40,082 nt of DNA, from positions 1-40,082 of IMG/VR virus record IMGVR_UViG_3300023220_000259. One strand, written 5' to 3'. Positions 7,228 through 20,854 of the stretch are shown piece by piece (the first letter of the stretch is position 1; every line of letters starts with the position of its first letter). The notes under the pieces were generated by a model. It did no database searches and had not been told where the DNA came from. It worked only from the letters and a program-made list of their open reading frames with translations. Both the position numbers and the translations under genes were made by a program. Source of the DNA: a virus.

Positions 7228-7265
7228 AGAGGGGACACGGCTTTTAAAGCTTGTCCCCTCTTCCT
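7228..7265 (+). terminator. Intrinsic terminator ending the lysis-like module
   Basis: A perfect 10-bp stem, AGAGGGGACA (7228-7237) with TGTCCCCTCT (7252-7261), encloses a partly self-complementary GCTTTTAAAGC. A short T-rich tail follows. It separates the late module from the early region. Confidence 0.85.
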
Positions 7266-7312
7266 TTATAGCGCGTTGAAAGCATTGGCCACAGCGGACA
7301 ACTTTATATTAA

Positions 7313-7332
7313 TTTGTTAGGTTATAAACAAA
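7313..7332 (+). promoter_or_regulatory. Dyad motif copy 1 (operator or promoter)
   Basis: TTTGTTAGGTTATAAACAAA is an inverted repeat (TTTGTT-N8-AACAAA), identical over 20 bases to the copy at 13443. A -7-like box TACTTTAG lies at 7341-7348, 24 bases after the first TTTG, the same spacing as to TAAACTTG at 13471. The ATG of the first early gene is at 7367. Confidence 0.6.
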
Positions 7333-7366
7333 ATTGGTATTACTTTAGCCTTATAAAATTAACACC

Positions 7367-7783
7367 ATGACAAATTACAAAACTTTTGAGATTATCGCCG
7401 ACTACGCGGACAACTCCAACGAAGCAAAATTCAAACAACGAGTAGCCATTGAAACCGGCGGAGAATATGAAGCCGACACCCTTTTAGTTTTCTATGTTGG
7501 GAACAAAGAATTAACCAATATCAGCACGGAAGAAACCACGGCGGAAGTATGGGAAAACATCGACCCCGCATTTTCAGCAAACCGCAAATTAATAGACGGC
7601 CAAGGAAATGTTTGGGATTTCGTGAGAGAGCGCGAAGAATATTTCATAATAAAATGTGGAATCAATGCGCACTTTATAGACAAAGAAGCAGGGCGAGAAC
7701 TTACCCCCGCTGAATATCTGGAAAAAAGCATGAGAGATTTAGAAACTTCAAAACAGAAATATCGCACAAAGAATTTTAAATAA
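7367..7783 (+). CDS. Conserved-looking protein of unknown function, first early gene
   Basis: This 138-residue acidic soluble protein is the first gene behind the dyad-type promoter at 7313. Its start has the ATTAACACCATG context shared with several early genes. No motif recognised. Early position suggests a host-takeover or regulatory role, which is inference. Confidence 0.6.
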   Translation: MTNYKTFEIIADYADNSNEAKFKQRVAIETGGEYEADTLLVFYVGNKELTNISTEETTAEVWENIDPAFSANRKLIDGQGNVWDFVREREEYFIIKCGINAHFIDKEAGRELTPAEYLEKSMRDLETSKQKYRTKNFK

Positions 7784-7792
7784 ATTAACACC

Positions 7793-7963
7793 ATGAAAAA
7801 GCGATTCATCACATTACCTGCTTCTAAAAAGCAGTATCTAAATCATTATTACAAAATGTTTCAAGCCCTCAAAATGGTAGTAGATGACATCGAAACCAAT
7901 TCAGGGCTTACCACAGAGACCGCCGCGCATGTAACTAAATTATATTATTCACTTAAAGATTAA
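7793..7963 (+). CDS. Small basic protein of unknown function
   Basis: This 56-residue ORF starts MKKRFITLPASKKQYLNHYY, has the ATTAACACCATG start context, and ends in a stop that lies inside the same motif of the next gene. The 9-base gap before it and 4-base gap after it fit an operon. It is basic at the N-terminus and probably helical. No family recognised. Confidence 0.55.
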   Translation: MKKRFITLPASKKQYLNHYYKMFQALKMVVDDIETNSGLTTETAAHVTKLYYSLKD

Positions 7964-7967
7964 CACC

Positions 7968-8387
7968 ATGAAAAATTTGATATTAATAATAATCGTAATT
8001 ATTGTTTCTTCCTGTACAGACAAAAAAGAAGACCCAAATAAATACCCTCAGTATAGTCTTACAACAGTTGATTATGTTCAGGATTCTCTTAGAGATAAGT
8101 TTGTTAATGACGTTGAAAGGCTTGTTAGAGCTACTAATCAACATTTATCTGCCGGTGATTATGAGGATGTTTGGGTCACATTAAGGGTTGTTAAGAGTGA
8201 CATACTATTACCAATGTACGGGACAAGGATTCGGGCTCTTAAAATTATGTATAAGAATCAGGAACATACAAGAATTATTAAACCTAAAAACTTAACTGAA
8301 AATCAGAGAACAATATTCAATGATCTTTTTCATAAAGAACAGAGAAATGAACGTATTCTAGCAAAAGGAATTCGAGATGAATTCTAA
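7968..8387 (+). CDS. Phage-encoded lipoprotein, possibly surface-exposed
   Basis: A type II signal peptide is clear: a hydrophobic stretch of Leu/Ile/Val (residues 4-13) and lipobox V-S-S-C with lipidated Cys16. The residues after it (CTDKKEDP) contain Lys followed by two acidic residues, which resembles the lipoprotein export signal K-(D/E)2 described for Capnocytophaga. The mature 124-residue part is hydrophilic and helical. An early phage lipoprotein suggests superinfection exclusion or receptor masking, by analogy with other phages; there is no direct evidence. It overlaps the next gene by 11 bases. Confidence 0.6.
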   Translation: MKNLILIIIVIIVSSCTDKKEDPNKYPQYSLTTVDYVQDSLRDKFVNDVERLVRATNQHLSAGDYEDVWVTLRVVKSDILLPMYGTRIRALKIMYKNQEHTRIIKPKNLTENQRTIFNDLFHKEQRNERILAKGIRDEF

Positions 8388-8712
8388 AAAAGAAAGCCTA
8401 TTAATAGATAGAATGTACACTGACACAATAGAAGACTTACGTGGCGTGATAACTGATAAATTTGGTAGCATCAAAAAGTTTTGTGAGACTGAAGGAATGC
8501 CAGAAGAAACAAACCTTTCCCGTATATTTTCTAAAAAATCAAATCGGTGTATGTCTATCGGGTTATACATTCGAATATTGATTGCTTTGGGATTAGTGGA
8601 CAAAGACGCCATAATCGGGGAAACGCTGGATTTAAAACTATCCTTAAAGCTTTACTTGAAGATAGATCACACCGCGGTTTTCAGGTCAATAAATACAATT
8701 CCTTATCTATAG
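8377..8712 (+). CDS. Cro-like helix-turn-helix regulator, candidate
   Basis: This 111-residue protein contains ITDKFGSIKKFCETEGMPEE followed by NLSRIFSKKS, then a hydrophobic helix. The FGS-(I)-xxFC start and the LSRIF recognition-helix pattern resemble small Cro/C1-type helix-turn-helix proteins. The protein at 12229-12624 carries the same KFGSIK motif, so the two form a local family. It is placed in the early operon behind the dyad at 7313. Regulator of that dyad is an inference. Confidence 0.5.
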   Translation: MNSKKESLLIDRMYTDTIEDLRGVITDKFGSIKKFCETEGMPEETNLSRIFSKKSNRCMSIGLYIRILIALGLVDKDAIIGETLDLKLSLKLYLKIDHTAVFRSINTIPYL

Positions 8713-8722
8713 ATTACAAAAT

Positions 8723-8995
8723 ATGATAACGAGAGAAGAATATTTAAAGGCTTTAGAGATTATTGACTATTACCATAGGCAAAACGAAAGAAACCCCCGC
8801 GAATTAAAAGAGAATGATATTATAATTTTTTCGGTAACTCATTCGAAACACGTTACAAGAGGAAAAGATTATCAAGTTATACAGCTTGACGATCTTGGTT
8901 ATAGGAAAATAATGTGGATCAAAAACGACAAACGGCAATCGGTTAACATAAATATGAACAGCCATTTGTATCAATGGGAAATTAAAGCAGAATAG
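8723..8995 (+). CDS. Small phage protein of unknown function
   Basis: This 90-residue protein begins MITREEYLKALEIIDYYHRQ, a pattern common in uncharacterised small proteins of Bacteroidota phages, followed by a beta-rich half containing VTRGKDYQVIQLDD. It is co-oriented with the early genes. No function known. Confidence 0.55.
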   Translation: MITREEYLKALEIIDYYHRQNERNPRELKENDIIIFSVTHSKHVTRGKDYQVIQLDDLGYRKIMWIKNDKRQSVNINMNSHLYQWEIKAE

Positions 8996-9024
8996 TTGCT
9001 TTGATTTATTCCCTATCTTTAAGG

Positions 9025-9534
9025 ATGAAAACCGCAATAATAGCACTACTAATTTTCTCTATTCTTCCCGAAACAAAAGGGCAAGCCAATAAAATTTCTA
9101 TTGCTCATAGTGAAATCCAGGTCTTAACCCAGGACGTACCGGGGGTGTCTGCTTCAACTACTTTCAAAAAAATTAGTGAGTGGATCCAATACAATTACAA
9201 AAACCCTCGCAAAGTCAAAAAAGGAAAAGTCGAAAACAAGTTCATTCGGTTTACAGGGGTAGCGAAAGACGCAACCATTTATTTTGGAACAAGCTACGAC
9301 CTGGAATATACAATCAGCATTAACATAAAGGATGATAGATATTCATTAATAGTTGAGCGGCTAAAGTTTTGGAATGGCGGGGCCGGTACTGAAGTAAGAA
9401 TCAAACAGTTTTTTAAACCATACGGGGAAATCAAAAAGGTAAACAAGCCTTTCGGGTGTGGAATTGAGGACACACTAAACCGGATTAACGCATCAATTTA
9501 TAAATATGTCACTAGTGAAGGGCAAGATATTTGA
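9025..9534 (+). CDS. Secreted DUF4468-like protein
   Basis: The ATG at 9025 is chosen over a TTG at 9001 because it gives a good signal peptide: MKTAIIALLIFSILPETKGQ, probably cleaved near residue 20. The mature protein has WIQYNYKNPRKVKKGK, then strands ending in SINIKDDRYSLIVERL (about residues 95-110), which fits the DUF4468 TBP-like fold of Bacteroidota secreted proteins. A periplasmic or surface location is expected. A strong terminator follows at 9588. Role in the phage is unknown; envelope modification or exclusion is possible. Confidence 0.6.
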   Translation: MKTAIIALLIFSILPETKGQANKISIAHSEIQVLTQDVPGVSASTTFKKISEWIQYNYKNPRKVKKGKVENKFIRFTGVAKDATIYFGTSYDLEYTISINIKDDRYSLIVERLKFWNGGAGTEVRIKQFFKPYGEIKKVNKPFGCGIEDTLNRINASIYKYVTSEGQDI

Positions 9535-9587
9535 TTATATTTAAGTTCTATTCATTTTAGTTAGGTGATAATTTACTCTTCTTAGAG

Positions 9588-9618
9588 GCCCGAAGCTCCA
9601 AACTTCGGGCTTTTTTTT
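9588..9618 (+). terminator. Intrinsic terminator
   Basis: GCCCGAAG (9588-9595) pairs with CTTCGGGC (9603-9610) around a 7-base loop, followed by eight T (9611-9618). It ends the first early operon. Confidence 0.9.
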
Positions 9619-9635
9619 GTTGACTTTATAACAAA
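9616..9635 (+). promoter_or_regulatory. Dyad motif copy 2
   Basis: TTTGTTGACTTTATAACAAA keeps both half sites (TTTGTT-N8-AACAAA). It begins inside the T-run of the terminator and lies 22 bases before copy 3, about two helical turns. Confidence 0.55.
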
Positions 9636-9637
9636 CT

Positions 9638-9657
9638 ATTGTTAACTTGCAAGCAAA
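9638..9657 (+). promoter_or_regulatory. Dyad motif copy 3
   Basis: ATTGTTAACTTGCAAGCAAA is an imperfect copy (ATTGTT-N8-AGCAAA). It ends 17 bases before the ATG at 9675. With copy 2 it forms the only tandem pair in the window. Confidence 0.5.
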
Positions 9658-9674
9658 CAAAAATAATTAGCACC

Positions 9675-9917
9675 ATGCAACAACATCAAAAATCAGTAGA
9701 TACACTTCGTAAGTTTTTCACTGTTACCGTGGCAGCTTTTGAAATGCACCACAGTATTAGTTTAGTCTTTGGAAACAAGGGGGACATAAGCGATATGCAC
9801 CATTTACACTTAATAGCAAAAGAAGAAATCGAAAAAGTGGACCCAGATTTAGCCAAAATTGATAATTTACTTTCAATGATGGAAGATTTAACGAAAAAAT
9901 ATAATCTTAAACCTTAA
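9675..9917 (+). CDS. Small early protein of unknown function
   Basis: I choose ATG 9675, preceded by ATTAGCACC, over a TTG at 9639 that lies inside the dyad motif. The 80-residue protein is His/Met-rich and mostly helical (MEDLTKKYNL at the end). It leads the exonuclease operon. No family recognised. Confidence 0.55.
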   Translation: MQQHQKSVDTLRKFFTVTVAAFEMHHSISLVFGNKGDISDMHHLHLIAKEEIEKVDPDLAKIDNLLSMMEDLTKKYNLKP

Positions 9918-9928
9918 AAATTAACACC

Positions 9929-11194
9929 ATGAAATTAACAATTGAACAGGCTAAGGCGTTATACTTCGCCCCCGGAGCTTTACAAGAACCCCCGTATACA
10001 TTATTCAGATTTCACCGCGGGGACAATCGCTACTATTATAGTTATCAACAGTCAACCCCATTTCATCAAGCCGGCAAAGTAGTAACGATAAAGAGAGCGC
10101 GGGAAGTTTTAAAAATGTACACCTCGGTAACTTCTTTTATTAAAAACACTATGCCGACAAGTCCATTTTTAATAAAGTGGATTGCTGAGAAAGGCTACGA
10201 CGCTGCCAAGGCTTTCGCCAACATGCGGGCGGAGTATGGCACGTTAATGCATAAATGCTTTGCGCAACTCACCATCAATAAAACTTTTGAATTTAAAACC
10301 TTGCCGGATCTTGTAGACTTGACACTGCAGGAATGTTACTTACCAAGGACACACCGCGAACCCTGGATCGAAGAACTAGAAAAAGATATCCTCGCCTATT
10401 CACAATTTTTATTAGACTTTAAAATCAAACCCTTGGCGGTTGAGGTTGTTTTGTGTCATCCGAAAGACGGGTACGCGGGCGCCGTGGATTTAATAGCTAA
10501 GGCAATGATACCGGTCAAAGACTTTTACGGGGAAGTCTTGAAGAGCGGGAAGAACAAAGGCAAGCCCAAGCAAACGACCAAGGATATTGAAATGACAATT
10601 ATCGTAGATTTCAAAAGCGGTAAAAATGGATTCTATGAAGACCAAGAAATCCAATTGGAAGCCTACAAGCAACTAGCGGAAAAGAATTTCGGTGTTAAGA
10701 TTGACAGGCTTTATAATTTCAGCCCCAAGGATTGGAAGACAAGCCCGGGGTATAACCTGAAGGACCAAACAGACAGCAAGGCCCGTGCAAAGCTCAAGCA
10801 CTTAATACCACTCATGAAAATTGAGAACGAGCGAAGGCGCCGCAATTTAATAGAGATCGACGGGGAAATCGATTTAACAAAAGGGATATCCCGAAATTAT
10901 CGATCGGTAAGTATTGAAGACTTTATCATCGGTGATTTTAAAGATGAAATGGTCCAGGTCCGGGGAAGCATTGGCGAGCAAGTATTAACGGTTAAAATTG
11001 GAAACGTTGTTCACACTTCACCACCAAGGGATGCGGGCGAATTCCCATACACAAGGAAAGACAAAGCGGCATTCCTGCGGGCTATTAAAAAGCTGACCAA
11101 GCCGAAGAAAAAGAAGTCAAGATCACTGACAGCAAAAAAGTATGTTAATCTAACGACAGCCGAGGTTTCGCAATGGAATCAAAGGAACCACTAG
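9929..11194 (+). CDS. PD-(D/E)XK exonuclease (recombination)
   Basis: This 421-residue protein has the signature of RecB/Cas4-like PD-(D/E)XK nucleases: YGTLMHKCF (His near residue 107), a Glu in AVEVVL (about 172), Asp in GYAGAVDLIA (about 187), then IIVDFKSG (Asp about 226, Lys about 228) and QLEAYKQ (about 243), the QxxxY motif. The C-terminal 120 residues end in a Lys-rich stretch. It most likely processes DNA ends for recombination or replication, with the next gene. The start has the ATTAACACCATG context. Confidence 0.8.
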   Translation: MKLTIEQAKALYFAPGALQEPPYTLFRFHRGDNRYYYSYQQSTPFHQAGKVVTIKRAREVLKMYTSVTSFIKNTMPTSPFLIKWIAEKGYDAAKAFANMRAEYGTLMHKCFAQLTINKTFEFKTLPDLVDLTLQECYLPRTHREPWIEELEKDILAYSQFLLDFKIKPLAVEVVLCHPKDGYAGAVDLIAKAMIPVKDFYGEVLKSGKNKGKPKQTTKDIEMTIIVDFKSGKNGFYEDQEIQLEAYKQLAEKNFGVKIDRLYNFSPKDWKTSPGYNLKDQTDSKARAKLKHLIPLMKIENERRRRNLIEIDGEIDLTKGISRNYRSVSIEDFIIGDFKDEMVQVRGSIGEQVLTVKIGNVVHTSPPRDAGEFPYTRKDKAAFLRAIKKLTKPKKKKSRSLTAKKYVNLTTAEVSQWNQRNH

Positions 11195-11207
11195 AACCCA
11201 ACAGATT

Positions 11208-11924
11208 ATGAAAGGCAGAATAAAAAGAAATGAGGAACTAACCAGAAGTAAGTTTCCCATTATAGGAAAAATCAAAGTCGGAGAAAAAACCGAGAAAGGC
11301 TACCCGACAAGCCTTGATTATTTCCGGTGTACAGGTAAGTATGAAAAACATTTTACCGAAGCATACGGGCAAAAGCCCAATAGAATAAGCATTGTCTTTA
11401 TCTCTGATGATCTGAAAGACTCATGCTTTGAGCGTTACGAGTGTAGGGATACAGACGGGCGCTTGGCGGCGTATGGTGACGGTGAAGACACTTTCGTTTT
11501 TGATGACACCATAAACGAGCATAAGCTGTCAGAACTAAGTAAACCGAAACTTGCGGCGCTCGGTAAATGGTCGGTAATACTCACCATTAAGTTTATAGCC
11601 TTGGATGTGTCCGGGGTCTTTGGTCTTTTCCAATTTGATACTAAAGGGGACAAGTCAAGTATTCCACAAATCCGCGACACGTTCGACACTGTGTTGTCTA
11701 CTATCGGCACGGTGATAAATGTACCTTTTGATTTGATAGTAGAGAAAGTTAAAAGTCAAAAGCCAAGATCGAAAAGCGTCTTTCCTGTTGTGTCTATGGT
11801 GCCGAATATCTCAAAAGATAATCAGGATAAACTCGCCGCCTTCCATAAATCAGGTGGTGATATTAAACAGCTTGGAACATTGAATGAGGAAAAAGTAAAA
11901 AGACTAGAAAACGATCCATTATGA
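11208..11924 (+). CDS. Conserved phage recombination-module protein (gp3/RDF-like)
   Basis: This 238-residue protein contains KGYPTSLDYF, then YGQKPNRISIVFISDD (about residues 53-68), then YECRDTDGRLAAYGDGE (about 76-92). This order matches a widespread phage family often found beside exonucleases and sometimes annotated as a hydrolase or metal-binding protein, with distant resemblance to phiC31 gp3-type recombination directionality factors. No integrase is visible here, so a role in single-strand handling or recombination is more likely than excision. The biochemical function is uncertain. It overlaps the next gene by ATGA. Confidence 0.6.
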   Translation: MKGRIKRNEELTRSKFPIIGKIKVGEKTEKGYPTSLDYFRCTGKYEKHFTEAYGQKPNRISIVFISDDLKDSCFERYECRDTDGRLAAYGDGEDTFVFDDTINEHKLSELSKPKLAALGKWSVILTIKFIALDVSGVFGLFQFDTKGDKSSIPQIRDTFDTVLSTIGTVINVPFDLIVEKVKSQKPRSKSVFPVVSMVPNISKDNQDKLAAFHKSGGDIKQLGTLNEEKVKRLENDPL

Positions 11925-12214
11925 AACGAAACAACCACGATGAATTTGATTTAGAAGTAGTTAAACTGATGGAGAAATTCAAGTTTGATAAAGAAAATTG
12001 TTTGTTTTTTATTAGAGCGCAACTATGTAAGGATAAAGATGGAGATGATTTAGTTGAGGTAATATCGAACGAGGCGTATTATGATGAATTATTAATTGAG
12101 TCATTCCATACTCATAGCATAGATCATAAACATTTTGAAGATGTGATACTATTAGTAGCACATAGAATCATGGAAGATAAAGGATTTATAAAAGACGGGA
12201 AACCAAACATTTAA
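11921..12214 (+). CDS. Unknown helical acidic protein
   Basis: This 97-residue protein is rich in Asp, Glu and His and predicted helical by eye. It is translationally coupled to the upstream recombination gene by ATGA overlap. No motif recognised. Confidence 0.55.
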   Translation: MKRNNHDEFDLEVVKLMEKFKFDKENCLFFIRAQLCKDKDGDDLVEVISNEAYYDELLIESFHTHSIDHKHFEDVILLVAHRIMEDKGFIKDGKPNI

Positions 12215-12228
12215 AAAGACCTGAAAAT

Positions 12229-12624
12229 ATGACAACACACGCAGAATTAAAAGCGGAAATAATAGACAAGTTCGGATCTATTAAGCGCTTTGGAGCTATA
12301 AAGACTCTCGACCATTACGAATTAAGATTATTTTTAATACGCCGGGATAATAATATCTCTGAGAGAGAACAAAGGGCGATCAATGCTTTGGCTGAAGTCG
12401 TAGAGCTTACCAATAAAATGGAAGTCCCCCCGAATGAAATCGGCCCTATTGATAGAATTGCAATGAACAGGGTAATGAAATTAAAATTTGGTAACGTCTT
12501 GAGCTTCTGCAAAGAATACCCGGAGTTTAAACAAGAAACCGTCTACCAGATTTTGAACGGTTACCGGAAGCGCAAAACGAAAATAGTATTTCAATTAATT
12601 GACACCTTAGAAAATTTAAAGTAA
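12229..12624 (+). CDS. Double helix-turn-helix-like regulator, candidate
   Basis: This 131-residue protein has two related segments. The first (about residues 10-35) contains IIDKFGSIKRF, nearly the same as in the protein at 8377-8712. The second (about 87-125) contains KFGNVLSFCKEYPEFKQETV and then YQILNGYRKRK, a convincing Cro-like helix-turn-helix with a basic recognition-helix flank. It may bind a dyad such as TTTGTT-N8-AACAAA. It overlaps the next gene by one base (TAATG). Confidence 0.55.
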   Translation: MTTHAELKAEIIDKFGSIKRFGAIKTLDHYELRLFLIRRDNNISEREQRAINALAEVVELTNKMEVPPNEIGPIDRIAMNRVMKLKFGNVLSFCKEYPEFKQETVYQILNGYRKRKTKIVFQLIDTLENLK

Positions 12625-12938
12625 TGAAAACTTTTAACATTTCGCTCTGTAAGCCCAACGGGAAGCCGACAGGGGAAGTAAAAAATGTAAAAATATTAAG
12701 GGCTTTCGAATACAAAGGCCGTGGTTATGTCCTGCACGAAGAAATAAACGGACACAGGCGAATGTTCAAAGGAAAGATCGTTGTTTCTGATTATAAAACA
12801 GGGGGTCGCGTTCATTGTGGCGACGACCCCACCGAGACAATAGCGGAAGCAAAAGGTAGAATTTTAGAACGCCCTGATTTTAATTACGACGCTTATGAAA
12901 CTATCAATAATTCGAACATTCAATTAGAAATAATTTAA
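12624..12938 (+). CDS. Unknown soluble protein
   Basis: This 104-residue beta-rich protein begins MKTFNISLCKPNGKPTGEVK and has a charged middle. It is coupled to the preceding regulator by TAATG overlap. No function can be read. Confidence 0.5.
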   Translation: MKTFNISLCKPNGKPTGEVKNVKILRAFEYKGRGYVLHEEINGHRRMFKGKIVVSDYKTGGRVHCGDDPTETIAEAKGRILERPDFNYDAYETINNSNIQLEII

Positions 12939-12957
12939 CTTTTAACACTAAATAACA

Positions 12958-13341
12958 ATGACAAAAAAGACAGAAGTAAAAGTCCCGGTCGAATTACTGA
13001 TCGAAGAGAAAGCGAAAATCGCTGATGAATTAGTCGAATTCCGTGATGAAATCGGAACCCTCACCGAAAAGATGAAGGAAACGACGGCCAAGTCAAAAAA
13101 GGAAATTGCAATCATTGAGGGCAAAGTCTCTTACCATTACAAGTGCTTGAAGATTGGCCATAAAGATGTAATGATGAAATGCGACATTGTGAAAAACTTT
13201 GATTCAGGCTTCAAAGAGTATCACACTAAGGACGGCAAAGTCCATGAAATACCCTTAGTCGGTGATGATTACCAATTGGAGACAGACGACAAGACAGTGG
13301 GCAATGTGCCTGATGAAATACCGGAAGACGTTCAAATTTAA
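12958..13341 (+). CDS. Unknown protein with N-terminal coiled coil
   Basis: This 127-residue protein has a Glu/Lys-rich heptad region (about residues 10-55) followed by a beta-type domain with HYKCLKIGHKDVMMKCD. It is the last gene before a terminator. Its place at the end of the recombination operon suggests an accessory factor, which is inference. Confidence 0.55.
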   Translation: MTKKTEVKVPVELLIEEKAKIADELVEFRDEIGTLTEKMKETTAKSKKEIAIIEGKVSYHYKCLKIGHKDVMMKCDIVKNFDSGFKEYHTKDGKVHEIPLVGDDYQLETDDKTVGNVPDEIPEDVQI

Positions 13342-13369
13342 ATATTATAACTTTGAACCGGTGTTAATT

Positions 13370-13429
13370 CCCCGGCTAAATCTAAATGAAGATTCAACTA
13401 AAGTTTCTCAAATGATTAGCCGGGGTTTT
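13370..13429 (+). terminator. Long-loop terminator after the recombination operon
   Basis: CCCCGGCTAA (13370-13379) pairs perfectly with TTAGCCGGGG (13416-13425), followed by TTTTC and a further T-run. The 36-base loop holds two weak hairpins (ATCT/AGAT and AACT/AGTT). Confidence 0.75.
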
Positions 13430-13442
13430 CTTTTTTACAACA

Positions 13443-13462
13443 TTTGTTAGGTTATAAACAAA
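13443..13462 (+). promoter_or_regulatory. Dyad motif copy 4
   Basis: TTTGTTAGGTTATAAACAAA is identical to copy 1 at 7313. A -7-like box TAAACTTG (13471-13478) follows 24 bases after TTTG. The expected transcript start is about 13485 and no protein gene follows for 370 bases. Confidence 0.6.
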
Positions 13463-13479
13463 TAAGGTTGTAAACTTGT

Positions 13480-13566
13480 ATTAGTTAGTTACTAGGGATT
13501 TGATTAACTAAAGATTTTAAAGGCTTTGCCGGATAGTTCCCTAGACTTGATGGCCAAGCCTTTTTT
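13480..13566 (+). ncRNA. Candidate small RNA with kissing-loop potential
   Basis: Behind the promoter-like dyad at 13443 lie two hairpins. Hairpin A pairs TTAGTTA (13485-13491) with TAACTAA (13505-13511) and has CTAGGGA (13492-13498) in its loop. Hairpin B pairs AAAGGCTT (13519-13526) with AAGCCTTT (13556-13563), is followed by T (to 13566), and has TCCCTAG (13538-13544) in its loop. The two loops are perfectly complementary over 7 bases. Hairpin B acts as an intrinsic terminator, so the transcript would be about 80 bases with no ORF. Confidence 0.55.
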
Positions 13567-13574
13567 GGTTTCAC

Positions 13575-13763
13575 AGGAGTTACGCCGCTTCTCCTACATC
13601 AAAAAGAACTTAGGTTAAATGGCCGAAGTAGCAAAGTGCGTTCCCCTATATTGGGTTTTACATCGTGTGAGTCGAAATAGGTGCAATCCTTAGACACACG
13701 TTAATAAAACGATGGCATAACAGGAGGATGTCATTAGTGCGAAGCGATCCTATTGCGACCGAT
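13575..13763 (+). ncRNA. Structured gene-free region, candidate RNA or origin
   Basis: This stretch has no convincing ORF but many inverted repeats: AGGAG (13575-13579) with CTCCT (near 13591-13595); CGTGTG (13664-13669) with CACACG (13695-13700); GTCGAAATAGG (13671-13681) with CCTATTGCGAC (13749-13759), 10 of 11 paired, which together with the former makes a pseudoknot; and GGCAT with ATGTC presenting AGGAGG in a loop. It lies directly upstream of a GIY-YIG endonuclease. I could not match group I or II intron cores. Strand and function are uncertain. Confidence 0.35.
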
Positions 13764-13775
13764 TGAGTAAGAAAA

Positions 13776-13815
13776 ACCTCTCTTTTTTTCTAAAATTGGG
13801 GGAAAGAGGGGGTGC
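13776..13815. terminator. Possible hairpin terminator, either strand
   Basis: CCTCTCTTT (from 13778) can pair with AAAGAGGG (from 13803), with A-rich sequence on one side. Read on the minus strand it would be followed by a T-run. This would be appropriate for ending a minus-strand RNA or bounding the structured region. Weak evidence. Confidence 0.25.
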
Positions 13816-13856
13816 TTCTTCTTAACCTTTGCTCCCTTCTGAGTAAATAGATAAGC

Positions 13857-14321
13857 ATGAAGAATAGAAAGAAATCAAAAAGTAATTTCCTGATATCTCA
13901 AATGAAGAGAAGGACAATAATAAGAGTGCTTAAGGATTTAGGGATAAATAAAATTGGAATTAACCCTTTCCATAGATGTACAAACGTTACACTATTTGAT
14001 GAGTTTGAAGCAAAAAAAGGAATTACTATCCATGAATTCATAAAAGAGAAAAACATTAGGAAAAACATTAAATTGAAAGAAGGTAAGATCTACATAATTG
14101 GTAATCTACATCATGGATTAGTAAAGATCGGATTTAGTACAAATCCAGATAAAAGGTTATCAGGTATCCAATGTGGATGCCCTTTTAAAGTAAAAGTACT
14201 AAGGGTCTTTAATGGCACAATGAAGCAAGAAAAATATTTACATTATAAGTACCGAAACTTAAACACAAATGGCGAATGGTTTAAATATGAAGGTGAATTA
14301 ATGCAAAATATTAAACTTTAG
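13857..14321 (+). CDS. GIY-YIG/T5orf172-type endonuclease
   Basis: This 154-residue protein has a basic N-terminal half (about 75 residues) and a C-terminal GIY-YIG-like domain of the T5orf172/MUG113 kind: IYIIGNLHHGLVKIGFSTN (about residues 78-96), Arg in DKRLSGIQ, a late Glu in QEKYLHYKYR and the closing GEWFKYE. Such enzymes are often homing or mobile nucleases in phages. It stands alone between gene-free DNA and small zinc-knuckle genes, so it looks inserted. The ATG at 13857 is the only good start. Confidence 0.75.
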   Translation: MKNRKKSKSNFLISQMKRRTIIRVLKDLGINKIGINPFHRCTNVTLFDEFEAKKGITIHEFIKEKNIRKNIKLKEGKIYIIGNLHHGLVKIGFSTNPDKRLSGIQCGCPFKVKVLRVFNGTMKQEKYLHYKYRNLNTNGEWFKYEGELMQNIKL

Positions 14322-14410
14322 CTATTGCAAGGGATAGGGGGAACTATAATTAACAGACTATGAAAACACCAAACGACATAAAAGCAACTTTTAATTAGAT
14401 GAAATGTTAG

Positions 14411-14626
14411 ATGAGTGAATATAGGTGTGAAAAGTGTGGTCAGTTTGTAAACCCTTGTCATGAGAATATTAGACCAGTGGAGATTCACGGGATGTTTTCA
14501 AAAGATTGTGATATATTTTTTCATGATGATTGTTTTTTTGATTGGTGTGACGATCAGGATAATTTAAAACAACAAAAATATGATGAACAATGTGATTTGT
14601 ACAATAAAACAGGTATTCAACAATAG
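14411..14626 (+). CDS. Small Cys/His-rich protein, zinc-binding candidate
   Basis: This 71-residue protein has CEKCGQFVNPC near the N-terminus and HDDCFFDWC near residue 40, giving a likely zinc-binding pattern. Its last residues (GIQQ) and the DNA that follows are repeated at the end of the next gene. No function known. Confidence 0.5.
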   Translation: MSEYRCEKCGQFVNPCHENIRPVEIHGMFSKDCDIFFHDDCFFDWCDDQDNLKQQKYDEQCDLYNKTGIQQ

Positions 14627-14637
14627 AAACTAGATGA
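14615..14637 (+). repeat. 23-bp direct repeat, left copy
   Basis: The 23 bases starting ATTCAACAATAG are identical to 14837-14859. They cover the 3' end of the upstream gene and the spacer before the next start. Confidence 0.85.
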
Positions 14638-14638
14638 T

Positions 14639-14848
14639 ATGGAAAATGGAGACACTCTAATATTTTTAGACGGAACACACTGTAAATGCGAGTGTGGGGA
14701 TTTGGTGCTACATAAAAGATCAGGACAGAAGGATAGGGAATTAAGGGTAGTTAATACACATGGCAGGCCAAAAGACGGAAAAGCTCCTTTATGGTGGATT
14801 AGACACTGTGAATCTTACGGGGATACATTTACTAAAATTCAACAATAG
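14639..14848 (+). CDS. Small Cys/His protein inside a direct-repeat cassette
   Basis: This 69-residue protein contains CKCECGDLVLH (about residues 15-25), a compact Cys-rich motif, and ends KIQQ, like the neighbour's IQQ. The gene and its spacer lie between two 23-bp direct repeats, so it may have been gained by recombination or could be deleted by it. Function unknown. Confidence 0.5.
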   Translation: MENGDTLIFLDGTHCKCECGDLVLHKRSGQKDRELRVVNTHGRPKDGKAPLWWIRHCESYGDTFTKIQQ

Positions 14849-14859
14849 AAACTAGATGA
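14837..14859 (+). repeat. 23-bp direct repeat, right copy
   Basis: Identical to 14615-14637; it covers the end of the cassette gene and the spacer before the replication gene at 14871. Confidence 0.85.
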
Positions 14860-14870
14860 CTAAATAAAAA

Positions 14871-15293
14871 ATGACACTATTTAATCAATTAACACCTGAA
14901 ACTGAAAAGCTCATCGAAGACCATTCCGAACTAATAAACAAGCATTTGGGCGTATGGATCAGCAACGAAATAAAAATAAAAGGCGGAATCGCTGGCGATG
15001 TAATCAATTTTTTGTTTCTGGAAAAACAAAGAATCAATCCTAGTCAAAGAATTATAAAATTAACCCCCGACAGAAAAAGGCTAATCGAAGCACAAATAAG
15101 AAGCGGTAACGGGTTAGCTCAGTTTATGGGTGTAATTTCTTTTAAGGTTAGACAATGGATGAATGACTCTGAATTCAGCAAGCATCTAACGCCGGAAACA
15201 TTATTCAGAATATCTAATTTTCAAAAATATTTAGAGGAAGCACGGGAAGATTTAGACCAAAAGCCAGTTACAAATGCACAAGAATATAGTTAA
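14871..15293 (+). CDS. Phg_2220_C-like replication protein
   Basis: In this 140-residue protein the C-terminal half has LTPDRKRLIEAQIRSGNGL, a middle VISFKVRQWM and then HLTPETLFRISNFQKYL. This matches the conserved phage C-terminal domain TIGR02220/Phg_2220_C (helix pair, then RPETLF...kFExYL), found in phage primosomal or replication-initiation proteins. It sits just before the helicase gene, as expected for a helicase-loader or initiator partner. The usual N-terminal winged helix is short or missing here. Confidence 0.65.
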   Translation: MTLFNQLTPETEKLIEDHSELINKHLGVWISNEIKIKGGIAGDVINFLFLEKQRINPSQRIIKLTPDRKRLIEAQIRSGNGLAQFMGVISFKVRQWMNDSEFSKHLTPETLFRISNFQKYLEEAREDLDQKPVTNAQEYS

Positions 15294-15384
15294 TCTTAAA
15301 AACTTCATTGGTTGGTTCTTTATTGTGCTGGCATTTTTCCTATTAAGCTGGGTATTATTGATGTACAGACGTCAGAAAATTTAA
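15274..15384 (+). CDS. Single-span membrane peptide
   Basis: This 36-residue ORF begins MHKNIVNLKN, has one strong hydrophobic segment (residues 11-30) and a basic tail (YRRQKI). It overlaps the upstream replication gene by 20 bases and ends 3 bases before the helicase gene. It is small, so the call is tentative. Confidence 0.4.
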   Translation: MHKNIVNLKNFIGWFFIVLAFFLLSWVLLMYRRQKI

Positions 15385-15387
15385 AAC

Positions 15388-16890
15388 ATGAATAAATTAA
15401 CACCACAAACCGAAACCCTCGGAAAGCTCCCCCCACAAAGCGTTGACATTGAGGAAACAATAATCGGGGCGATACTATTAGAAAGCGGCGCACTGGATAA
15501 GGTAAAAGATATTATAACCTCTAAATCCTTTTATCGTGACGCACATCGAATAATTTTCGAAGCCATGGAGAAAATGAAGGAAGAGGGAACCCCTATAGAC
15601 ATTAAAACCACAGTACACCAACTAAGGAAAGCCGGACAACTCGAAGTAATAGGCGGCGCGTATTATATTGCCGAATTGACATCAAAGGTCAACAGTGCTG
15701 CCAACATCGAAACCCACGCCAGGATAGTAGCCGAACAGCATATCAAAAGATCATTGATTATGATTTCGGGTAATCTTCAAAATGCTGCCTATAAAGACAC
15801 GACAGACACGTTCGAACTATTAACACAAATAAAAGGACAGATTGCAGAGATTGACGAAGAGACAATCAAGTCTATAAAAAATCAAAACGCCTTAATCAAG
15901 ATAAAAAACGAAAGCCTGATTGATGAATTTGAACACGGAAAAGAAATTGGCGAAGATCCACGAGTCAACGAAATGAGGGGCAAAGATGGAAACTTGCGTT
16001 TTGCTTGGAAAAGGGGGTTTCTTAATTGTTGGACGGGTTGGCCTAATGATGGAAAAACGCAATTCTTTTCCACTATGTCTCTGACGATGTCAATTAAAGC
16101 CGGTTGGAAGTGGGCTATTTTTTCGCCGGAAATGTATTCGAGCAAAAAATTAAAGGACGGGACTATCGAAACCAATGCAAATGATATTATCGACGATCTG
16201 GTTTTCACCATGACAGGCAAGACGCCCTATAAACATTACAATACTGACAACAGATTGGATATGTACGATTATCTTGAAGCGGTGGACAAGGTTAAAAACT
16301 GGTTTCACTTCATTAATCCCGCTGACAGGGACTACAAAAATATTATAGACGTATTCAGATATTATCATGGTGAATATGGAATCGACGGATTTTTAATTGA
16401 TCCCTTCAAAAATGTGCGTTATGATATGGAAGTCAGATCCGATATAATGTTGGATAGAATTTTCGACGAGTTCAAGCAATTAACACTAGACACTAATACG
16501 TCTATGAATTTTATTGCGCATCCTCGAAGCGTTTCCGAGCCTAAAAATTCAGATGGTAGTTATAAGATAGTTACTCAATGGATGTTGCTAGGCGGTGCCG
16601 CTTGGAACAATGGAATGGACGGGATTTTCTCAATTAATAGACCAAATAAGCACGTGGACAGTAACGACCCCGGCGTCCACTTCTACAACCTGAAGCAGCG
16701 CAAGCAACAACTAGTAGCCCGTACCGGAGTAATCGAAGATATTATGTTTAATTGGAAGACTAACCGATATTATTTTGGTGGTGTCTGCCCTATCGACGGG
16801 GAAATTGATATGGAATTCAGAAAACCAAGTAAACAAGTTGTAATTAATTACAGTGAACCAGGTAAAGAAAACGAAGATTTACCATTTTAA
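15388..16890 (+). CDS. dnaB: Replicative DnaB-type DNA helicase
   Basis: This 500-residue protein starts with the DnaB N-terminal domain (PPQSVDIEETIIGAILLESG, about 12-31; ARIVAEQHIKRSLI, about 112-125). The RecA-like ATPase follows with Walker A GWPNDGKT (about 217-224; the usual G after Pro is Asn) and Walker B-like GFLIDPF (about 334-340). It would unwind DNA at the phage fork and recruit host primase; no phage primase or polymerase is visible. The upstream Phg_2220_C protein is a plausible loader. Confidence 0.85.
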   Translation: MNKLTPQTETLGKLPPQSVDIEETIIGAILLESGALDKVKDIITSKSFYRDAHRIIFEAMEKMKEEGTPIDIKTTVHQLRKAGQLEVIGGAYYIAELTSKVNSAANIETHARIVAEQHIKRSLIMISGNLQNAAYKDTTDTFELLTQIKGQIAEIDEETIKSIKNQNALIKIKNESLIDEFEHGKEIGEDPRVNEMRGKDGNLRFAWKRGFLNCWTGWPNDGKTQFFSTMSLTMSIKAGWKWAIFSPEMYSSKKLKDGTIETNANDIIDDLVFTMTGKTPYKHYNTDNRLDMYDYLEAVDKVKNWFHFINPADRDYKNIIDVFRYYHGEYGIDGFLIDPFKNVRYDMEVRSDIMLDRIFDEFKQLTLDTNTSMNFIAHPRSVSEPKNSDGSYKIVTQWMLLGGAAWNNGMDGIFSINRPNKHVDSNDPGVHFYNLKQRKQQLVARTGVIEDIMFNWKTNRYYFGGVCPIDGEIDMEFRKPSKQVVINYSEPGKENEDLPF

Positions 16891-16905
16891 AAAAAGACAA
16901 TTGTT

Positions 16906-17169
16906 TTGAAATTTTCAACAAAACGATATAGTGTAAAGCTTGAATTATGGAACCGTAACCCCTTCCATAAAGACGGCAGGCTTTACGAACAAAGGCAATA
17001 CGGGACCGGCTTTTCGCTCTTCCTTGACCTGGGGGTTACGACTGAAGAACAAGCCAAGGAAGCCGCCCAAATAGAGTGGAAACAATATCCGACAGAAGAT
17101 TGGATAAAAAGAATTTTAATAAGGAATCCTGAATCAGAATTAATTTATGAACATTTCACTAACACTTAA
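16906..17169 (+). CDS. Unknown small protein
   Basis: The frame opens at TTG 16906 and encodes 87 residues with a beta-rich first half (KRYSVKLELWNRNPF) and helical end. It is four bases from the next gene. No family recognised. Confidence 0.5.
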   Translation: MKFSTKRYSVKLELWNRNPFHKDGRLYEQRQYGTGFSLFLDLGVTTEEQAKEAAQIEWKQYPTEDWIKRILIRNPESELIYEHFTNT

Positions 17170-17172
17170 AAA

Positions 17173-17694
17173 ATGATAATCAACAGATCGTGGGCAATGC
17201 CTTCCAAGCATACATTTTTAATAAAACCTATTGGAAATCTAGTTAAAAGATACGTAAGCGATGGAACAGGATGGATTGACCCGTTTGCAGGAGAGAACAG
17301 CCCCGCCGAAATAACTAACGACCTGAATCCAGACAAGCCAACAATGTATCATCTTCACGCTAAAGAGTTTGCGCACCAATTGACAGGAGAATACGAAGGA
17401 GTATTGTTTGACCCCCCATACTCATTACGACAAGTGAAAGAGTGTTACGACGAAATTGGAGTGAAATTGTTCAAGGAGGATTCGCAGAGGTTCCCGCAAA
17501 ATGTAAAGGAGGAAATATTACCTAAAATAAAGTTGGGGGGGATTGTCATTTCTTTTGGATGGAACTCTCAAGGGTTTGGAAAAAAACTAGGCTTTGAAAT
17601 CATAGAAATATTACTAGTTGCTCACGGACGATCTCATAATGATACAATAGTAGTTGTAGAAAGAAAGTTTCAAAATGAGCTATTCAAAAAATGA
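17173..17694 (+). CDS. Orphan DPPY-type DNA methyltransferase
   Basis: This 173-residue protein shows a motif I-like WIDPFAGE (about residues 35-42) and motif IV LFDPPYSLRQ (about 77-86), then GGIVISFGWNS in the expected position of later strands. These are marks of small amino-methyltransferases (N6-adenine or N4-cytosine). No matching restriction enzyme is nearby, so it probably protects or marks phage DNA. Target site cannot be read. It overlaps the next gene by ATGA. Confidence 0.65.
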   Translation: MIINRSWAMPSKHTFLIKPIGNLVKRYVSDGTGWIDPFAGENSPAEITNDLNPDKPTMYHLHAKEFAHQLTGEYEGVLFDPPYSLRQVKECYDEIGVKLFKEDSQRFPQNVKEEILPKIKLGGIVISFGWNSQGFGKKLGFEIIEILLVAHGRSHNDTIVVVERKFQNELFKK

Positions 17695-18125
17695 TACTAA
17701 GAATAAAAGCGGGACAAAATAAAGACATCCTCTTTGTAACTCAAAAGCTTTTAGAATTAACTGAAGGTGATTACACGGTCGAGGTTAAGAAGCGGCGCAA
17801 GATTCGCACCATTTCACAAAACCGATATTATTGGGGCGTTGTTATTCCTTACATATCTTTAGAGCTTGGCTATTCAAAGGACGATGCGCACGAAGTTCTC
17901 GCCCGCCAATTTCTAGCCAAAACAATAAAACTACCAGACGGTGAAGAAATGGAAATCGCCAGAACAACAACAGGATTAGATACAGCCGAATTCGCACAAT
18001 ACATTGATAAAATAATGTTCTTAGCCTCAGAAACTTTGGGAATTAAAATTCCCCAGGCCGGCGAAGTACACCAAGACACTATCGACGAATTACACAACAG
18101 AGTCGAAGAAAGTCTAGCAAATTAG
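17691..18125 (+). CDS. NinB-like recombination protein
   Basis: This 144-residue protein has KRRKIRTISQNRYYWGVVIP (about 37-56), ELGYSKDDAHEVL (about 61-73), and TTTGLDTAEFAQYIDKI, in the order found in NinB-like proteins of lambdoid and other phages. NinB binds single-stranded DNA and takes part in recombination. It is coupled to the methyltransferase gene and lies close to the RuvC-like resolvase, forming a recombination set. Confidence 0.65.
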   Translation: MILRIKAGQNKDILFVTQKLLELTEGDYTVEVKKRRKIRTISQNRYYWGVVIPYISLELGYSKDDAHEVLARQFLAKTIKLPDGEEMEIARTTTGLDTAEFAQYIDKIMFLASETLGIKIPQAGEVHQDTIDELHNRVEESLAN

Positions 18126-18141
18126 TTAACTTGTAAACAAA
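18122..18141 (+). promoter_or_regulatory. Dyad motif copy 5
   Basis: TTAGTTAACTTGTAAACAAA (TTAGTT-N8-AACAAA) begins inside the stop region of the NinB-like gene and ends 10 bases before the ATG at 18152. Confidence 0.5.
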
Positions 18142-18151
18142 TATTAACACC

Positions 18152-18370
18152 ATGAAACATTTAATAGAATCAATTTTCCCGTTTAGATATTTAATTATAA
18201 TAGGTATCTTATATTCATTTTCGATATTGTACCGACCTTATAGGAAATGGCTACTATCAACGGAAGAACCAAAAGAATTAAAAGCTTTTTTGCTTGTTCC
18301 TATAGCTGTAACTATTTCATCCGGAATACTCTTCACATTTATTTTCATATCAATTTATAGTAAGCCATGA
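18152..18370 (+). CDS. Two-helix membrane protein
   Basis: This 72-residue protein has hydrophobic segments at about residues 12-26 and 46-68 separated by a basic and acidic loop (RPYRKWLLSTEEPKE). Its start has the ATTAACACCATG context behind dyad copy 5. It overlaps the next gene by ATGA. Function unknown. Confidence 0.5.
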   Translation: MKHLIESIFPFRYLIIIGILYSFSILYRPYRKWLLSTEEPKELKAFLLVPIAVTISSGILFTFIFISIYSKP

Positions 18371-18594
18371 AAATTAAAAATATTTTTAAATCTAATTGGA
18401 CACGCTGGGAACCTGTACACGTTTACACACATGATTGGCATAGTTTCATAATATTAAGCAAACTCAATAAAAAATCAGGACTAGTAAAATTTAGGACAAT
18501 TCAAATAAATTCTAAGTTTGGGGGAATGATCGAAAGTCCTAAAGAAATTGATTTTAAAAACTCGTTTTCGCACCTATTAAAAACACCAGCATGA
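18367..18594 (+). CDS. Unknown small basic protein
   Basis: This 75-residue protein has a beta-rich core (FIILSKLNKKSGLVKFRT). It is joined to both neighbours by ATGA overlaps, so it is very likely translated with the resolvase. No family recognised. Confidence 0.5.
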   Translation: MKIKNIFKSNWTRWEPVHVYTHDWHSFIILSKLNKKSGLVKFRTIQINSKFGGMIESPKEIDFKNSFSHLLKTPA

Positions 18595-19028
18595 AATTCA
18601 TAGGAATAGACTGTGGACGCCAAACAGGGTGGGCAGAATGGGAAGACCGCCTAGACAGATTCACCAAGCTTGAAACTTATGATTTCTGGGGTGCAATAGA
18701 TGAACTTAGCCTCGTTGCTGCTTTCAATAAGTTAAATGATTACGAAACGAAAGTAATAATCGAAGACCCTGGATTAAATAAACCTACTTTTGTTCCTAAG
18801 GGAATGCCTCGAAACGTGGCACTAAAAAAAGCCCAGGACGTAGGACGCAACAAGGAAAACGCTTTTTTAATCATAAAATATTGCGAGAAGTATCAAATAC
18901 CTTTTGCAACTTTAAGACCAAGCGCCCCGAAATGGAACGCCGAAACCTTCAAAAACCTTACAAAACACCAAGGAAGGACAAACGAACATAACCGCGACGC
19001 CGCCCGCTTAGTATGGAAACTATCATAA
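18591..19028 (+). CDS. RuvC-like Holliday junction resolvase
   Basis: This 145-residue protein shows the RNase H-fold pattern of RuvC: FIGIDCGRQTGWA with Asp7, VIIEDP with Glu58, a basic helix (KGMPRNVALKKAQDVGRNKE, about 70-89) and terminal RDAARLVW with Asp136. The size fits phage resolvases that resolve branched DNA before packaging. It starts by ATGA overlap with the preceding gene. Confidence 0.75.
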   Translation: MKFIGIDCGRQTGWAEWEDRLDRFTKLETYDFWGAIDELSLVAAFNKLNDYETKVIIEDPGLNKPTFVPKGMPRNVALKKAQDVGRNKENAFLIIKYCEKYQIPFATLRPSAPKWNAETFKNLTKHQGRTNEHNRDAARLVWKLS

Positions 19029-19041
19029 ATTTATTGGAATC

Positions 19042-19272
19042 ATGAAAGCAGAAGAAAAGACATTAAGAAAAGCAATGAGTATAGAATATTGTGAACTAAC
19101 AAGATTCGATTATTTAGATCATCCACAAGAATCAGAAATGATATATGATGCAATGCGAAAATTCTCTAAAGCTCAATTGATAGAGTTTAGTAAATACTTA
19201 GTAATAGAGTTTAGCACTGATGACGGAATAACCGCGGAAAAATATGTTGAACAATTTCTAAAAGAATCATGA
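19042..19272 (+). CDS. Unknown helical protein
   Basis: This 76-residue acidic, mostly helical protein (KAQLIEFSKYLVIEFSTDD) lies between the resolvase and HNH genes. No motif recognised. Confidence 0.5.
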   Translation: MKAEEKTLRKAMSIEYCELTRFDYLDHPQESEMIYDAMRKFSKAQLIEFSKYLVIEFSTDDGITAEKYVEQFLKES

Positions 19273-19378
19273 AAGCACTTGGCAGTATTCACAAGTATCA
19301 ACGGGCAAAGTCGATATAATGGAAATATTTTCTAAAAAGAAGATTGAACAATTTATAGAAGAATATGATAAAAAATAA
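19269..19378 (+). other. Two tiny overlapping ORFs, doubtful
   Basis: A 16-residue ORF (19269-19319, MKALGSIHKYQRAKSI) starts by overlap with the upstream stop and ends in TAATG, where a 19-residue ORF begins (19319-19378). That one overlaps the HNH gene start. The chain of overlaps resembles coupled translation, but both peptides are very short; they may only be a translational relay or a decayed gene. Confidence 0.25.
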
Positions 19379-19763
19379 CACCACAACAGGCGAAAGAATA
19401 AGCGAAGCCACAATCAAACGTCGCTATACCGCAGCACTTAGGAAAAAGCATTCAGGACGACCAAACACAAAACAATGTGTTTGCCGTGGCGATAACTGCC
19501 AGGGGCAAGCAGTACACAACGACCACACCATCGCACGCGCAAGGCTAAAAGAAATAGGGAAAGCAAATTTGATTTATTCACTAAGCCAATATGCCTTCGT
19601 CGATTCCTGCGAAAAGTGTCATAAAGAATTCGAATCTTACCGAGACGGCGCGTGTCTTTCTCACGTCAATTATGAAGAAAGATTGGACTACATAAGGGTA
19701 CATGATCCAGAGGGCGCAGAAATAAGAGATAATTTTACACCTATGTTTAAACTGAATCAATAA
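19365..19763 (+). CDS. HNH-type endonuclease-like protein
   Basis: This 132-residue protein has CVCRGDNCQG (about 38-47) followed by VHNDHTIARARLKEIGKANL (about 50-69), then SCEKCHKEFES (about 82-92). Paired Cys and the HNDH...CxxCH arrangement fit a zinc-stabilised HNH fold. It may be a homing or processing nuclease in the recombination region. Catalytic identity is not certain because the central Asn is displaced. Confidence 0.55.
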   Translation: MIKNNTTTGERISEATIKRRYTAALRKKHSGRPNTKQCVCRGDNCQGQAVHNDHTIARARLKEIGKANLIYSLSQYAFVDSCEKCHKEFESYRDGACLSHVNYEERLDYIRVHDPEGAEIRDNFTPMFKLNQ

Positions 19764-19765
19764 TT

Positions 19766-20161
19766 ATGAATATAATTGAAGAAATCTATAAATCGAACTA
19801 CATGGACAGCCGGAGGTTTTCATATGTTGGGACACTTCGAAATGAAAAGATATTTAAGATTAATGAGATAGTTTTTTTTGCTCCTTTTTTTGCTAAACCC
19901 GATATAGCACAAGGTAAGATTGTAGGTGTTGAGCTACCACCAGATGACAACCCTGAGTATATTTATAAATTGGAGATTCCAAAAGAATTAGTCATAAACG
20001 ATTTTAATGGAAAACCGACTGATAGGGTTGAGTTAGAATGTGACAAAATCTTTAGTACGCTTGAGGAGGCAAAAGAATCAGCGAAAAGAAAATTGGAATG
20101 TTCTTACAAATTACAAAAAAAAGAAATTGAACGATATTTCAAACAGTTCGATAAAAAATGA
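19766..20161 (+). CDS. Unknown soluble protein
   Basis: This 131-residue protein has a beta-rich N-terminal half with a short Phe-rich strand (FFAPFFAKP) and a C-terminal Lys/Glu helix (EEAKESAKRKLECSYKLQKK). It is coupled to the next gene by ATGA. No family recognised. Confidence 0.5.
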   Translation: MNIIEEIYKSNYMDSRRFSYVGTLRNEKIFKINEIVFFAPFFAKPDIAQGKIVGVELPPDDNPEYIYKLEIPKELVINDFNGKPTDRVELECDKIFSTLEEAKESAKRKLECSYKLQKKEIERYFKQFDKK

Positions 20162-20598
20162 TACTAATAGAATCAATACTCGCGATACTGTTTTTGTTTG
20201 CAGCTTTCATTCTGCTTTTATCTATGTTGGTCACAATCGAAGAGCAAAAGAGAAAAGAGGAAGTCGAAGAGAGATTACGCCCGGCTTGGGATTGGGTACT
20301 AAATCAATTCAAAAAGAATGATGTAAACTGGAACCCTGGGGACTTCGGATATAGTATAAAATTTAAAGACATGCAAGTCACCAGTAGGTACTCTATGCAT
20401 GGAATAAATATTATGATGTGGATAAACCCCGCAGCCTTCGCCGCTCTTGGCATTCTGAAAGAGATAGGACACTTGCACGGACTCACCCACACATCCGGAA
20501 AATTCATGAAGCACGGATCAAACGCGACAAATATGAATCCAGAAGATTTAGAAGAGTATTTCGACGCGATAAAAGAGGCAAGAAAAGAGCGAGAATAG
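20158..20598 (+). CDS. Membrane-anchored protein of unknown function
   Basis: This 146-residue protein has an N-terminal transmembrane anchor (about residues 5-27, rich in Leu/Ile/Phe) followed by a charged linker (EEQKRKEEVEERLR) and a soluble domain with His-rich GHLHGLTHTSG (about 103-113). The His cluster could bind metal. No known family seen. Confidence 0.5.
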   Translation: MILIESILAILFLFAAFILLLSMLVTIEEQKRKEEVEERLRPAWDWVLNQFKKNDVNWNPGDFGYSIKFKDMQVTSRYSMHGINIMMWINPAAFAALGILKEIGHLHGLTHTSGKFMKHGSNATNMNPEDLEEYFDAIKEARKERE

Positions 20599-20607
20599 TC
20601 GTAATAA

Positions 20608-20627
20608 TTAGTTAAGTTACAAACAAA
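20608..20627 (+). promoter_or_regulatory. Dyad motif copy 6
   Basis: TTAGTTAAGTTACAAACAAA (TTAGTT-N8-AACAAA) ends 13 bases before the ATG at 20641, whose context is again ATTAACACCATG. Confidence 0.5.
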
Positions 20628-20833: not shown

Positions 20834-20849
20834 AATTCACTATATTTAC
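20834..20849 (+). promoter_or_regulatory. Late-type promoter-like box
   Basis: AATTCACTATATTTAC resembles the blocks at 2882 and 6671 and contains TATATTTA (20841-20848) as -7 box. The expected transcript start is about 20855. Confidence 0.4.
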
Positions 20850-20854
20850 AACGG

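Follow-up and report, generated by a model that had tools for sequence, protein, structure and literature searches.

Six copies of a 20-bp dyad element, TTTGTT-N8-AACAAA, lie in the early region of the virus contig analysed here (the window: the full 40,082-nt stretch, positions 1 to 40,082 of IMG/VR record IMGVR_UViG_3300023220_000259). The six sites are real and their number is far above chance. They are probably, if by no means certainly, operators at which a DNA-binding protein of the phage acts, most likely to repress early transcription. The contig is that of a Bacteroidetes-type tailed phage, its portal, terminase and capsid being of the type seen in Bacteroidetes siphoviruses. The label ‘early’ is applied to 7.3-20.8 kb because of gene content alone, as this part encodes an exonuclease, a Gp3-like protein, a DnaB-type helicase, a methyltransferase, NinB and a Holliday-junction resolvase.

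The copies are numbered 1 to 6 by position, and all are on the plus strand. Copy 1 (7313-7332, TTTGTTAGGTTATAAACAAA) and copy 4 (13443-13462) have the same sequence over the 20 bases, or 21 with the preceding A. Copy 2 (9616-9635, TTTGTTGACTTTATAACAAA) and copy 3 (9638-9657, ATTGTTAACTTGCAAGCAAA) are spaced by 22 bp. Copy 5 (18122-18141, TTAGTTAACTTGTAAACAAA) ends 10 nt ahead of the ATG at 18152 and holds the stop codon of the gene at 17691-18125 in its left arm, and copy 6 (20608-20627, TTAGTTAAGTTACAAACAAA) stands 13 nt ahead of the ATG at 20641. The first-pass annotation had reported these six sites, the identical pair, the 22-bp spacing, the intergenic or gene-end siting and the absence of copies from the late region, and each of these was borne out, the best late site reaching 14.1 bits with a matrix of the six copies. 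Its further statement that the copies are confined to early units stands as far as all six lie within a 13-kb region, with the term early subject to the reservation above.

The form TTWGTT-N8-AACAAA is observed six times against 0.045 expected, with a maximum of one in 200 dinucleotide shuffles, and the exact-arm form TTTGTT-N8-AACAAA four times against 0.02 expected. With the weight matrix of six copies the members score 22.7-27.9 bits and the best non-member, which is within a gene, 16.1 bits; a matrix search had been proposed beforehand, and the many equally good copies inside genes that would have spoken against the motif were not seen. At 18 bits or more there are six sites in the window versus a mean of 0.05 in shuffles. 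When each copy was left out of the matrix in turn, five of the six held-out copies ranked first genome-wide among non-training sites, and the weakest, copy 2, ranked second with 13.4 bits. An unbiased search of the intergenic DNA, covering all half-sites of 5-7 bases and all spacers of 0-14, returned TTTGTT-N8-AACAAA as the top dyad of the window (p 1.7e-10; best of 200 intergenic shuffles, 5.5e-10). This search was used in place of an earlier generic clustering of palindromic words, which was too noisy in AT-rich genomes. The six members of the original list hold; an exact-arm dyad at 15011, within the gene at 14871-15293, was missing from that list and was rejected as a member, as the core is missing from it and its score is under 8 bits.

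The consensus of the six copies is TTWGTTARSTTRYAAACAAA. The two-fold symmetry to be looked for in an operator set is present in the outer pairs 1-6, which are complementary in 5, 6, 4, 6, 5 and 6 of the six copies (32/36 in total), and not in the inner pairs 7-10, complementary in just 0, 1, 2 and 0. The description of the element as a dyad is thus correct for the outer six base pairs, and the palindrome does not extend to the whole element. Within the core A7, T10, T11 and A14 are nearly invariant yet asymmetric. All six copies share one orientation, and each held-out copy scores higher along transcription than reversed (13-25 versus 4-9 bits, 6/6). A single orientation in six of six has a probability of about 3% by chance, to be read with the transcription of the region from one strand and the symmetry of the outer arms. 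A hairpin in the leader RNA was considered and rejected, as the arm changes (in copy 3, and T3 to A in copies 5 and 6) unpair the stem without compensation.

Flavobacterial promoters have the form TTTG/TAnnTTTG, with a start 4-5 nt past the -7 box and a weak -33 element (PMC6847099). Copies 1, 2 and 4 come directly after intrinsic terminators and carry TTAG or TTG 20 nt ahead of a TAnnTTTG-like box. The terminator before copy 1 (7229-7267, plus strand, GAGGGGACA...TGTCCCCTC and a T-rich tail, read from the sequence) closes the preceding unit; copy 1 then covers the -33 element and spacer in a promoter that would serve 7367-8995, where TTAG (7317-7320) is separated by N20 from the -7 box TACTTTAG (7341-7348, plus strand), with a predicted start at about 7353 and the ATG at 7367. 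The terminator at 9588-9618 (plus strand, GCCCGAAG...CTTCGGGC-T8, likewise read from the sequence) shares its T-run with the first bases of copy 2. The TTG inside copy 2 (9620-9622) is followed after 20 nt by the -7-like box TAACTTGC (9643-9650), which is itself inside copy 3, so that copy 3 lies over both the box and the start predicted, at about 9655, for the exonuclease operon (9675-13341). Upstream of copy 4 a hairpin and T-run (13370-13436, plus strand, CCCCGGCTAA...TTAGCCGGGG, read from the sequence) forms a terminator and the end of a short RNA from near TAACTTTG (13347). Copy 4 lies on the -33 element and spacer of a small-RNA promoter, with TTAG (13447-13450)-N20-TAAACTTG (13471-13478) and a predicted start at about 13483. 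The -7-like boxes past copies 1 and 4 (7341 and 13471) do share the offset of 24 nt after TTTG reported earlier; counted from the inner TTAG, the same boxes stand at 20 nt, the spacing usual for host promoters.

At copies 5 and 6 no promoter was recognised, there being no promoter-like sequence in reach at two or fewer mismatches. Boxes at -33 and -7 about 17-21 nt apart, as sigma-A promoters would show at every copy, are therefore not general to the set: copies 1, 2 and 4 have the 20-nt spacing but mismatched boxes, and copies 3, 5 and 6 have none. The distance from the dyad to the -7 box is likewise not fixed, an offset of 7-8 nt being found in copies 1, 2 and 4 only. That the internal TAnnTT serves every copy as its -7 box was not favoured; there is no -33 element upstream, and flavobacterial -7 boxes avoid G at both variable positions (PMC6847099).

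The mechanism proposed from this arrangement is as follows. One sequence-specific protein, probably phage-encoded and probably a dimer, would bind all six copies. Copies 1, 2 and 4 would cover the -33 element and spacer in early promoters that the host RNA polymerase uses, and copy 3, two helical turns from copy 2, would cover the -7 box and transcription start of that copy's promoter. The regulator, made from an operon under its own control, would cover these promoters and turn early transcription off. Copies 5 and 6, ahead of two further gene groups, may block polymerase arriving from upstream, or may alternatively act on weak promoters not recognised here. Recognition by a factor other than sigma is suggested by the outer dyad together with the copies off the -33 position (3, 5 and 6). 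Since copies 1 and 4 are promoter-like and copies 3, 5 and 6 keep their arms off -33, the element appears to be an operator superimposed on promoters and repeated elsewhere. Repression is favoured over activation because the position varies among copies and because copy 3 covers a -7 box, where an activator would block polymerase. Both possibilities raised at the outset, a dimeric regulator's operator and a phage-specific promoter element, thus find some support, with copies 1, 2 and 4 on promoters and copies 3, 5 and 6 off -33.

Related genomes use other elements in comparable places. No member of the dyad family was found in 20 related contigs, which gave a few arm-only matches, and the annotated phages gave no close match. 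Lack of conservation in related phages had been named as a ground for abandoning the motif; the sequence is indeed absent, and other repeated elements head the early units of the relatives. The best whole relative contig, G001, has a capsid 70% and a portal 46% identical, and its early region is unrelated. A relative with a terminase of 74% (L091, IMGVR_UViG_3300024518_005311) spans just 4 kb, a genome scan with the terminase gave relatives of 43% at best, in Bacteroidales bins, and scans with portal, terminase, exonuclease, regulator and capsid brought up no near relative whose early region is complete. Hits to the dyad in IMG/VR, eight stretches that represent four distinct sequences, were set aside, being on contigs without protein similarity to the window. 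In G002 (terminase 52% identical) a different 20-bp dyad, AACATGYTAYACAACATRYT, is mostly intergenic and about 63 nt ahead of an ATG (L132-L134, e.g. 6795, 7420, 10994, 13051, 31687, 33152 and 38955). In nine cases it is followed at exactly 30 nt by a TAnnTTTG box, one mismatch at most being allowed, versus a mean of 0.64 at other offsets; this geometry is of activator type, the fixed box distance being found there, unlike in the window. G005 and G011 have their own different dyads exceeding their shuffles, and the weaker dyad of G010, TTAGG-N4-CCTAA, is not above its shuffles. A TAACG-N4-GGCTA element in G001 seemed repeated and failed to hold up. The same genome (L129-L131) has long imperfect hairpins between early genes at 309-448, 1434-1536 and 37497-37602, bounded by YTAACG and TTGTTAG/A, which resemble integron attC sites.

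The B40-8-like phages P2559S, TCUEAP2, PDS1 and AS73P1 have the exonuclease and Gp3-like genes in common with the window. In all four an early promoter recurs, TTTTGGTAATTAAAAAA-N7-TAnATTTG, varying slightly and with a spacing of 18-20 nt (L152 1463, 28210 and 30637; L153 22968, 24956 and 31056; L154 4546 and 10372; L155 13962 and 19785), which in P2559S and TCUEAP2 heads an exonuclease operon syntenic with that of the window. This promoter is conserved past the needs of the host consensus. Of the three intergenic sites in the window that best match its -33 element and spacer, copies 1 and 4 account for two; copies 2, 3, 5 and 6 are not among them.

These promoters bear most directly on the view that the dyad is a plain early promoter, in which the host primary sigma factor reads an extended -33 element and an A-rich spacer, no dedicated protein takes part, and the look of a dyad arises incidentally from flanks rich in T and in A. 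This is unlikely. In its favour, copies 1 and 4 have the TTAG-N20-TAnnTTTG-like boxes and match the B40-8-like elements with which the relatives’ exonuclease operons start. However, copies 3, 5 and 6 lack a -7 box at the distance that a promoter would need and match the relatives’ promoters poorly, yet keep both arms; copies 5 and 6, 10-13 nt from an ATG, leave no space for a downstream -7 box; and TTWG, the four bases just 5′ of the -33 element, is conserved without any promoter need. Binding of a phage activator of delayed early (middle) genes, such as MotA of T4, is improbable. The imperfect -33 elements of the window and the 30-nt distance to the TAnnTTTG boxes in G002 would suit such a protein, but in the window dyad and -7 box stand at varying distances, one such box lies under copy 3, and no promoter is seen downstream of copies 5 and 6.

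The single orientation of the six copies, their closeness to start and stop codons and the two sites without a promoter recall stoperators, oriented intergenic sites where a repressor, monomeric or asymmetric, stops elongation in addition to blocking promoters. Six sites on one transcribed strand make orientation weak evidence, however, and with outer arms that are palindromic, unlike the L5 sites, and no L5-type repressor found, this explanation is quite improbable. Phages borrow host regulators, and the TTGT-N10-ACAA geometry of the dyad is reminiscent of Rex sites. A role as the site of a host regulator, e.g. Rex or a Bacteroidetes LexA-like repressor, is nonetheless hardly credible, as the consensus fits none of the Bacteroidetes SOS motifs (GGA-N5-TCC, CTAA-N5-TTAG and the diverged TTAC-N5-GTAA; PMC8565304) and the targets (exonuclease, membrane proteins and small RNA) do not point to redox control.

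Several observations also weigh against the operator reading, in which the protein that would bind the dyad, its identity and the repression are all putative. The asymmetric conserved core is unusual for a simple dimer operator, the dyad family does not recur in the related contigs, and the resemblance of copies 1 and 4 to the plain early promoters of relatives means that conservation may be partly promoter sequence. The Pfam scan of the window and the PHROG families listed brought up neither an integrase nor a recognisable repressor, which makes a lysogeny repressor unlikely. The two proteins put forward for DNA-binding tests in the first-pass annotation are both encoded on the plus strand in dyad-headed operons, a point in favour of the operator reading: candidate A (8377-8712, 111 residues, with a KFGSIKKF motif) in that of copy 1, and candidate B (12229-12624, 131 residues, with two KFG-type motifs) in that of copies 2 and 3. 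They have a KFGSIKxF motif in common (phmmer E 0.0037 between the two). Neither has a family or fold match or a recognised DNA-binding domain, and single-sequence structure predictions were poor, with a predicted local distance difference test score (pLDDT) of 49.5 and 39.9 for the two, and were not used. That A or B is the dyad-binding regulator is a guess. Candidate A has a 41% relative in Flavobacterium phages, including FPSV-S1, in which the gene (L151 25458-25763) is broken by a stop codon and the match continues beyond it.

The contig is probably near complete with little of the genome missing, since the proteins encoded at its two ends are neighbours in G001 (12410-14572 and 14573-17650). 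It has no tRNA genes. The product of 11208-11924 is a Gp3-like recombination directionality factor (PF18897, 7.5e-30), though the phage is without a recognised integrase, and another gene matches Tad3, which inhibits Thoeris defence (PF25185, 2.9e-7). The leader (A)TTAACACCATG is common to many window genes (7357, 7784, 7958, 9919, 18142 and 20631), in agreement with the Kozak-like A at -3 of Flavobacterium. Three likely small RNAs, at 13342-13436, 13483-13572 and 20839-20930, each have a promoter-like box and a terminator hairpin, and none has a match in Rfam. The second, on the plus strand 3′ of copy 4, is predicted at -24.2 kcal/mol (z -2.2) and ends in its terminator hairpin; its ACTAGGGA/TCCCTAG and AAGGCTT/AAGCCTT pairs could form a pseudoknot. 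A second promoter-like motif, ATTCnyTATmTTTr, occurs without a dyad at other units (2882-2896, 6664-6685, 9006-9021 and 20836-20849).

The principle of a multi-copy operator is known from other phages; the sequence of this dyad is new, and it was not reported in the literature searched. SPBRE of the Bacillus phage SPbeta was found in silico as a repeat and later proved to be the site of the repressor MrpR (PMC10516654). It is alike in being a short repeat at many intergenic, promoter-proximal sites that was found first by computer, and differs as a 15-bp motif bound by a recombinase-like prophage repressor, whereas the 20-bp dyad has six copies and the window shows no sign of lysogeny. This precedent and the repeated intergenic elements of the relatives themselves support the reading of the dyad as an operator. 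The L5 sites are asymmetric, intergenic and orientation-bound (PMC9283540). The stoperators of L5 and cluster A are alike in lying between genes near start and stop codons, in one orientation and both at promoters and away from them, but they are 13 bp long and number more than 20, in contrast to six sites with palindromic outer arms. The Bacteroidetes primary promoter accounts for the boxes at copies 1, 2 and 4, and differs in that copies 3, 5 and 6 are outside the -33 position. The B40-8-like promoters, too, recur where early units begin, the shared exonuclease operon among them; those phages are without TTTGTT-N8-AACAAA, and no systematic search was made there for promoterless copies.

Transcription control in Bacteroidetes phages is little described in the literature searched beyond promoter guesses, such as the four putative promoters of phage ATCC 51477-B1 (PMC2535602). 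The exact list of sites allows fishing for the regulator, and the 30-nt dyad geometry of G002 and the B40-8-like promoter are directly testable by-products. Orthogonal Bacteroidetes regulators could serve as genetic parts. On a wider and rather unlikely view, Bacteroidetes siphoviruses may share a widespread and so far unrecognised layer of control, in which a lineage-specific, fast-changing regulator is paired with a matching multi-copy dyad placed over otherwise conserved early promoters, and to which the phage described here would add orientation-specific roadblocks against read-through.

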